A stretch of 47,967 bases of DNA from Polaribacter sp. GTDB taxonomy: Bacteria; Bacteroidota; Bacteroidia; Flavobacteriales; Flavobacteriaceae. The position numbers and the translations under genes were made by a program. Shown one piece after another: positions 31,762 through 34,245 of this stretch. The notes under the pieces were generated by a model, which searched no databases, was not told the DNA's origin, and was given only the letters and a program-made list of their open reading frames with translations. How positions within the stretch are numbered: the first letter of the stretch is position 1; the number at the start of each line of letters is the position of its first letter. The stretch spans positions 48,254-96,220 of the forward strand of contig JABAZI010000071.1 of assembly GCA_018608545.1 (NCBI GenBank). Reading direction: 5' to 3'.

Positions 31762-31965
31762 TTAGTTATGTTCTACTTCTACACAAGAATCAAATTGTTC
31801 TGGAGATTTTCCACAAAAACCACAAGATTCTCCTGTTTTGTTTAGCATTGGATTTTGACTGGCACAAGTTCCAGCAAATTCTCCATCTTTTTTGATCCAA
31901 ATTTTAATTGCAATTCCTGCAAAACCCAGAGCTAGTAGACCTATAGTAAGTAATAATAATTTCAT
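31762..31965 (-). CDS. Small membrane-anchored Cys-rich protein
   Basis: From ATG 31965: MKLLLLTIGLLALGFAGIAIKIWIKKDGEFAGTCASQNPMLNKTGESCGFCGKSPEQFDSCVEVEHN; the ORF-track start at 32064 looks like an unsupported extension. Confidence 0.72.
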   Translation of the reverse strand: MKLLLLTIGLLALGFAGIAIKIWIKKDGEFAGTCASQNPMLNKTGESCGFCGKSPEQFDSCVEVEHN

Positions 31966-32195
31966 AAAAAAAATAATTAACACGGTAAAGATACGCTTAT
32001 TTATATGTTCTTTAAAATGCATGTAACCTCTTTTTTCTATGGATAAACTTTTAAAATAAACCACCTTTTTAAGAGTATTAAGTGTGTTTCGTTTAGTTGA
32101 TTTAGAGTAATAATAGATTTTTATGATTATTCATGAGTTGTTTTTTAAACTATTTGTAACTTTAAATGTCTAATCAACAACAAAAATCCACTTAG

Positions 32196-32984
32196 ATGAA
32201 TCAACAACAATTTTTAAAACGTTCACTTTTTCTTATTTTTTCATTGATCATATTTATTTCTTGTAGCTCTCCAGAAGATGTAAATAAAGAAGATGTTGAT
32301 GACACACTAATTCCAATACCTTCTACAAATTATGATACTACACCTATTTTAATATTTTTCGATAACATTGAGGCAGTATCTTACTCTGTAAGTGGAAATA
32401 CTGTAACTTTTACAACGACTGATTTACCGAATCATACGAGTCCTTATTGGAATTCTTCTCATCCATTATATGAGGCTTACAATGGAACAAACTCTAATTG
32501 GAATAAAAATCCAAATTCAATTGGAGAGCAAAACATAACGTTTACAATGCCCTTAAATCCCTCTGAATCATTAACAAAAACGGCAACTCCATTAGGACCG
32601 ATAGGAATCGCAAGAAATGGAGTAGTTTTTTTTAATCAATATGCGGGTCGAAATAATCAACCCTTAACAAATGAAATAAATTCTTTTGATCAGTGGTTAG
32701 GTCATCCTGCAGGAACTCAATACCATTATCACATAGAACCTTCTTTTTTAACTAATAATTTTGGTAAAAATGCATTTTTAGGGTTGCTTTCAGATGGATT
32801 TCCTGTGTATGGTCCCTTAGAAAATGGAGCGACAATTACAAATGCAGATTTAGATGATTATCATGGTCATGTATCTGTAACAGAAGATTTTCCGGAGGGA
32901 ATTTACCATTATCACATCACAAACGAAGATCCTTATTTAAATGGAAATGGTTTTTTTGGAACAGCAGGAAACATAACACGATAG
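32196..32984 (+). CDS. YHYH-domain lipoprotein
   Basis: Lipobox (IIFISCSSPE); GTQYHYHIEPSF, DDYHGHVS, GIYHYHITNEDPY motifs. Confidence 0.88.
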   Translation: MNQQQFLKRSLFLIFSLIIFISCSSPEDVNKEDVDDTLIPIPSTNYDTTPILIFFDNIEAVSYSVSGNTVTFTTTDLPNHTSPYWNSSHPLYEAYNGTNSNWNKNPNSIGEQNITFTMPLNPSESLTKTATPLGPIGIARNGVVFFNQYAGRNNQPLTNEINSFDQWLGHPAGTQYHYHIEPSFLTNNFGKNAFLGLLSDGFPVYGPLENGATITNADLDDYHGHVSVTEDFPEGIYHYHITNEDPYLNGNGFFGTAGNITR

Positions 32985-32987
32985 TTT

Positions 32988-33590
32988 GTGAAGCTTTATA
33001 AAATTGGTTTTGTATTTAGTATGCTTTTTATTTCTTGTAATTTGGATGATCAAGCGAATGAGGGGCTTATTCTTCAAAGTGAAATAAAGATTCCTTCAGT
33101 AGAAAAAAATAAAAAAGATGCTAATTTCGAATTAAAAAATGGTGTGTTGTTTTTTAAAGAGAAAAAGTATTCAGGAATTGTAAACGAATTTTACCCCAAA
33201 GGAGCATTCAAATCAATGTCTCAATATTATAAAGGTCAAAGGGAAGGGATGTTTTTTGGCTGGTATTCTGACGGAACACATTGGTTTGAGCGATTTTATA
33301 AAAAAGGATTAAAGTCATCCACTCACAAAGGTTGGTATAATAATGGGAATCAGATGTTTTTGTATCACTTTAATAATAAAGGACGATATCATGGGGCTGT
33401 GAAAGATTGGCATCCCAATGGAATTTTAGGAAAGCATTTTAATTTTATGGAAGGAAAGGAGAGAGGAAGTCAAAAAATGTGGGACTTAGATGGGAAAATT
33501 ATGGCTAATTTTTATACTGTTGAAAATGAAAGACATGGTCTAATTGGTTTAAAAAACTGTATTAGTAATCTAACTTTAGAAAACAAATAA
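32988..33590 (+). CDS. MORN-repeat (YwqK-like) lipoprotein, GTG start
   Basis: GTG at 32988; SMLFISCNLDD lipobox; KYSGIVNEFYPKGAFKSMSQYYKGQREGMFFGWYSDGTHWFERFYKKG repeats. Confidence 0.82.
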   Translation: MKLYKIGFVFSMLFISCNLDDQANEGLILQSEIKIPSVEKNKKDANFELKNGVLFFKEKKYSGIVNEFYPKGAFKSMSQYYKGQREGMFFGWYSDGTHWFERFYKKGLKSSTHKGWYNNGNQMFLYHFNNKGRYHGAVKDWHPNGILGKHFNFMEGKERGSQKMWDLDGKIMANFYTVENERHGLIGLKNCISNLTLENK

Positions 33591-33591
33591 A

Positions 33592-34245
33592 ATGAAATTA
33601 AAGATATTATCTATCGCTTCTATTTTTGTCATGTTTTTCTCCTGTAATAACCAAATTTCAATAGATAAAACAAAAACACTTCCTTTTTATAATTCAGAGG
33701 AATATACACCACAATGGATTTCACAAAGTGATCCAAATTATACTAACATTCATACCATCGCACCGTTTGAGTTCACAAATCAAAACGGAAAAAAAATCAC
33801 GAATAAAGAGTTTGAGGGTAAGATTTACATCGCCGATTTTTTTTTTACAAGCTGTCCAAGTATTTGCCCAATTCTAGCAAAAAATATGGAAGCTATTCAA
33901 GCATATTATAAACATGATGAGACCATTTTATTGCTTTCACATTCAGTCATGCCTTGGGTAGATACCGTTGAAAAAATAAAAGCATATGCAACAGAAAATA
34001 ATGCAATAGATACTAAATGGCATTTAGTTACAGGTGATAGAAATCAAATTTATCAACTCGCTAGAAATTCCTATTTTGCTGACGAAGATTATAAAAAAAC
34101 AAAAGACGAACTTGAATTTATTCATACTGAAAATTTTATATTGGTTGATAAAAAAGGGAGAATTAGAGGTGTTTACAATGGCACTTTGGCATTAGATATT
34201 CAAAGATTGCAACGTCATATAGAATTACTCAAATTAGAATACTAA
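33592..34245 (+). CDS. SCO1/SenC-family lipoprotein
   Basis: Lipobox (VMFFSCNNQ), YIADFFFTSCPSICPILAKNM (CxxxC), WHLVTGDRNQIYQLARNSYF, FIHTENFILVDKKGRIRGVYNG (conserved His). Confidence 0.92.
   Translation: MKLKILSIASIFVMFFSCNNQISIDKTKTLPFYNSEEYTPQWISQSDPNYTNIHTIAPFEFTNQNGKKITNKEFEGKIYIADFFFTSCPSICPILAKNMEAIQAYYKHDETILLLSHSVMPWVDTVEKIKAYATENNAIDTKWHLVTGDRNQIYQLARNSYFADEDYKKTKDELEFIHTENFILVDKKGRIRGVYNGTLALDIQRLQRHIELLKLEY

Follow-up and report, generated by a model that had tools for sequence, protein, structure and literature searches.

The SCO1/SenC copper chaperones (PF02630) are the closest described relatives of one protein of the locus analysed here. SCO proteins have a thioredoxin-like fold. 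A second protein carries the YHYH domain (PF14240), a widespread domain of unknown function that is also present in phage tails; its predicted metal site consists of three histidines and an aspartate, and a metal-dependent hydrolase has been predicted for the phage-tail form (PMC7824862). Two further types of described system are relevant, the CnrYXH-type combination of an ECF sigma factor, an anti-sigma factor and a periplasmic metal sensor, and the Cus/CopA copper efflux loci. A literature search found no paper in which the terms 'YHYH' and 'SCO family protein' occur together, and a search on 'YHYH domain' returned only phage papers; no earlier description of the locus was found in the literature searched, and a sequence-only reading of the same DNA had put it forward as a candidate for an undescribed system.

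The window, a stretch of 47,967 nucleotides from Polaribacter sp., contains three tandem lipoprotein genes on the + strand at 32196-34245, separated by gaps of 3 and 1 bp in the list of open reading frames. The first gene (32196..32984, ATG start, 262 aa) encodes a YHYH-domain lipoprotein (76.7 bits against PF14240, cut-off 25, E = 3e-21), the second (32988..33590, GTG start, 200 aa) a MORN-repeat lipoprotein, and the third (33592..34245, ATG start, 217 aa) an SCO-family lipoprotein (97 bits against PF02630, cut-off 22.8, E = 9e-28) that also matches solved SCO structures. The lipobox cysteine was invariant in each family (Cys23 in 47 YHYH relatives, Cys17 in MORN and Cys18 in SCO). The layout and spacing given in the sequence-only reading agree with these data, and the motifs that it listed were found, QYHYH, DYHGH and IYHYH in the YHYH protein and CPSIC with His178 in the SCO protein. 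The three genes are probably co-transcribed. An Rfam search for regulatory RNA gave no match, promoter and terminator scans gave counts no higher than in shuffled sequence, and no TTTG/TAnnTTTG promoter was found before the operon. Divergent from the trio, at 31762-32064 on the - strand, lies a gene for a small conserved membrane-anchored protein with many cysteines (GTCASQNP...CGFCGK) and no curated Pfam match.

When genome contigs were scanned, 63 loci were obtained, 59 having a YHYH gene closely related to that of the window and the remaining four having distant YHYH proteins. The YHYH-MORN-SCO order and strand were intact in 56 of the 59; two of the exceptions stop at a contig edge after the MORN gene, and in the third (L091) the reading frames are disrupted. 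The hosts are chiefly Flavobacteriaceae (Polaribacter, Tenacibaculum, Algibacter, Maribacter and others), together with Cyclobacterium and Reichenbachiella, and several genomes (those of L034, L045, L055, L080 and L087) carry a divergent second copy of the entire trio. When the MORN profile was searched against 301 family genomes, 71 strong matches were obtained in 66 genomes, with a clear score gap between trio-type and generic MORN proteins (133 versus 89 bits). A trio-type SCO gene lay immediately downstream of 66 of these 71, among the matches listed, and every one of 30 fetched loci had YHYH upstream and SCO downstream of MORN. The distribution is patchy, the trio being absent from the complete genome G132, which belongs to the same genus. 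A phylum-wide sample of 396 genomes contained 19 with a strong trio-type YHYH gene and 18 of these had the complete trio; four of the complete trios come from outside the class. The three proteins have correlated pairwise distances (r = 0.79-0.84), to which shared ancestry contributes. The linkage across genera, families and classes and the existence of diverged second trios were counted in favour of a single module. We conclude that the trio is a real, conserved three-gene module with linkage beyond chance, and the conserved linkage on which the earlier proposal had been staked is borne out.

Because Cys88 and Cys92 of the CPSIC (CxxxC) motif (33853..33867, +) and His178 (codon 34123..34125, +), the third copper ligand position of SCO proteins, are kept in all 29 aligned trio members, the trio SCO is, by its sequence, competent for copper. 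Homology to SCO proteins would also fit copper delivery for cytochrome oxidase assembly, a role that the sequence-only reading had entertained. However, the window's genome has two further SCO genes outside the trio, one in a cluster that by inspection includes haem-O synthase, oxidase subunits III and IV and a DUF420-like protein, and the other adjoining a FeoB-like gene and a c-type cytochrome. Of the 301 family genomes, 295 have an SCO protein that matches the trio profile at E ≤ 1e-35 and only 66 have trio-type MORN, so that SCO proteins outside the trio are near-universal whereas the trio is found in about 22% of family genomes. Furthermore, a motif scan of about 80 loci found no oxidase genes beside trios. 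Given the separate cox-linked SCO and the near-universal SCO matches, the oxidase role was rejected as highly implausible. In the cox cluster, an SCO-like protein of 220 aa without CxxxC (L159 3611-4273) directly adjoins the canonical SCO.

In the YHYH protein, Asp165, His170, His177, His179, Asp200 and Asp220 are conserved whether or not a YHYH protein belongs to a trio, the codons of the three histidines falling in the core motif GH...YHYH (32703..32732, +; 97-100% kept). This conserved histidine triad with aspartate agrees with the published prediction of the metal site (PMC7824862). His80, His223, His225, His238 and His240 are conserved in the trio proteins and less so in other YHYH proteins, although His80 is still kept in 73% of the latter; the DYHGH (His223, His225) and IYHYH (His238, His240) motifs, at 32856..32915 (+), are 93-100% conserved in trio proteins and 17-42% in others. 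This pattern suggests an additional ligand set that is typical of the module. The structure model, with a pLDDT of 78.9, has matches among predicted viral YHYH proteins (E about 1e-8), and neither sequence nor fold comparison with the PDB gave a match to a solved structure.

Other YHYH proteins occur in different settings. YHYH genes on annotated non-Bacteroidota plasmids had no annotated SCO or MORN neighbour, a Deinococcus YHYH gene is paired with HupE/UreJ, and in one case (L080 6611-7741) YHYH and EF-hands are parts of a single fusion protein. Downstream of longer YHYH paralogues lies a gene for a DUF6702-like protein (L080 851-1468 and 2504-3094; also L083, L084, L092, L093 and L094). This protein is predicted to begin, once mature, with an invariant histidine and has a second invariant histidine internally; these residues possibly form a histidine-brace metal site.

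Lipoproteins of Bacteroidota with an acidic stretch just past the lipidated cysteine go to the cell surface, the export consensus in Flavobacterium johnsoniae being SDDFE (PMC5080379). At least two acidic residues at positions +2 to +6 were present in 30 of 47 YHYH, 6 of 29 MORN and 2 of 29 SCO proteins, a count that covers the three trio families alone. The SCO proteins are basic in this stretch. Based on these signals, the YHYH protein is probably on the cell surface and the SCO protein in the periplasm, and the co-localization that the sequence-only reading thought probable is doubtful.

The neighbourhoods of the trio were also compared. A Persicobacter plasmid carries a trio that is flanked by an AraC-type regulator on one side and, on the other, by genes for a DUF3347 protein, CusB, an AcrB-type pump and an HMA P-type ATPase (CopA-like); this is the one copper-gene neighbourhood among the about 80 loci of the motif scan. 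Another trio adjoins a ZnuA-type uptake system; at this locus (L183 768-4755), an ABC permease has a C-terminal iron-dependent repressor domain. Taken together, the Persicobacter, ZnuA, DUF6702-like and HupE/UreJ contexts point to metals, while the choice of copper as the metal rests mainly on SCO. In 20 of 57 loci the same-strand run includes a sulfatase gene, as it also does in a distant phylum lineage, a BNR/beta-propeller-like protein neighbours the trio in 20 of 57, di-haem peroxidase genes adjoin five trios, and CotH, EF-hand, VTC and DUF4956 genes lie near some. Co-occurrence of CotH is weak at the genome level (p = 0.001). In L034, L049 and L087, a block of CotH, VTC, DUF4956 and DUF2490 genes adjoins YHYH genes, sometimes with EF-hand proteins.

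The sulfatase, CotH and peroxidase neighbours are not uniquely copper-related and leave room for reading the YHYH protein as a surface enzyme. In the main rival explanation, it would be a Zn-dependent surface hydrolase acting on cell-wall or algal polymers, with SCO and MORN aiding its maturation and the module taking part in surface polymer processing with the sulfatase and CotH. The hydrolase prediction from phage tails (PMC7824862), the recurrent sulfatase and the surface-export-like signal all favour such an enzyme, but its constant partnership with an SCO bearing intact copper ligands is left unexplained, and the Zn/hydrolase idea is itself a prediction; we consider it unlikely.

In many relatives, the trio is preceded by genes for an ECF sigma factor, a small protein with one transmembrane segment that is a putative anti-sigma factor, and an anchored CpxP/Spy/CnrX-type sensor. 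The putative anti-sigma factor had no match in a Pfam search, and the sensors scored mostly below the Pfam cut-offs, one member exceeding that of Metal_resist. In the 301 family genomes, 26 of 37 sensor genes are within 10 kb of a trio, and four more adjoin a longer YHYH gene; sensor and trio co-occur at the genome level with a Fisher p of 2.6e-15, a value that ignores relatedness. The sigma-sensor-trio arrangement was also seen at L170, L176 and L177, loci from distant phylum members. In the window the cassette is not beside the trio, and a search of the window's own genome for the trio-linked sensor gave no match.

The MORN label of the second protein needed some qualification, since the window protein alone scores below the cut-off of MORN_2 (PF07661; 14.4 bits against 29.6, E = 0.046). 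Nevertheless, the label holds for the family, in which 24 of 29 orthologues match MORN_2, and for the fold, the AlphaFold model (pLDDT 87.5) matching the solved MORN structures SET7/9 and MORN1. Besides the lipid cysteine, Cys191 (codon 33558..33560, +) is the only invariant cysteine (29 of 29). Together with the thioredoxin-like SCO fold, the adjoining di-haem peroxidases and the CpxP/Spy-like sensor, this residue fits an envelope thiol/redox module, in which SCO would be a thiol-disulfide reductase for the MORN cysteine and for other lipoproteins in oxidative stress, with metal being incidental. We regard this as improbable, as the distal histidine of SCO is never lost and the YHYH protein has no invariant cysteine other than its lipid cysteine.

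Our preferred explanation, to which we give about an even chance, is that the trio is an accessory, metal-responsive envelope module, distinct from the cytochrome oxidase assembly system, whose SCO protein serves a YHYH metalloprotein. The metal is likely copper. The SCO protein, lipoprotein-anchored and probably facing the periplasm, would act through its CxxxC and histidine, either binding copper and passing it on or keeping cysteines reduced. The YHYH lipoprotein would be the recipient, combining the superfamily metal site with the extra histidine set, and the MORN protein would be a docking partner or scaffold whose invariant cysteine may join the transfer. Since an ECF sigma factor, a putative anti-sigma factor and a CpxP/CnrX-like sensor precede the module in many relatives, it is probably turned on by metal or envelope stress. 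The envelope copper-handling module of the sequence-only reading keeps the backing of conserved ligands, one copper-efflux locus and a metal-sensor-like cassette, but loses its oxidase role. Against a copper module are the copper context in a single scanned locus, the window genome without the sensor, neighbours that are not copper-specific, and a YHYH model whose ligand geometry is unsupported by any solved-structure match. A more specific form of the explanation, in which YHYH is a new extracellular copper protein, loaded in the periplasm by SCO with MORN assisting, exported to the surface and controlled by a metal-sensing ECF system, appears distinctly unlikely.

The order of sigma factor, small membrane protein and anchored CnrX/CpxP-like sensor upstream of the relatives' trios is that of CnrYXH-type systems; the cassette differs in that its putative anti-sigma factor lacks a Pfam match, metal sensing is a prediction and the window's genome lacks the sensor. 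The Persicobacter plasmid trio sits inside a Cus/CopA-type copper efflux locus, whereas the other scanned trio loci have no such efflux genes. The YHYH protein shares the six core Asp and His residues with YHYH domain proteins at large, including those of phage tails, but is a short lipoprotein with an extra histidine set and fixed SCO and MORN partners, and the fixed partnership with a copper-type SCO offers a testable lead to the chemistry of the domain. If the preferred explanation is true, SCO proteins would act beyond oxidase assembly, in the way abundant marine bacteria deal with metals at their surface. The trio SCO has the CxxxC motif and distal histidine, the SCO domain and the membrane anchor of SCO1/SenC chaperones such as Bacillus YpmQ/Sco and human SCO1, but it forms a distinct subfamily that is always found with YHYH and MORN genes and outside oxidase clusters.
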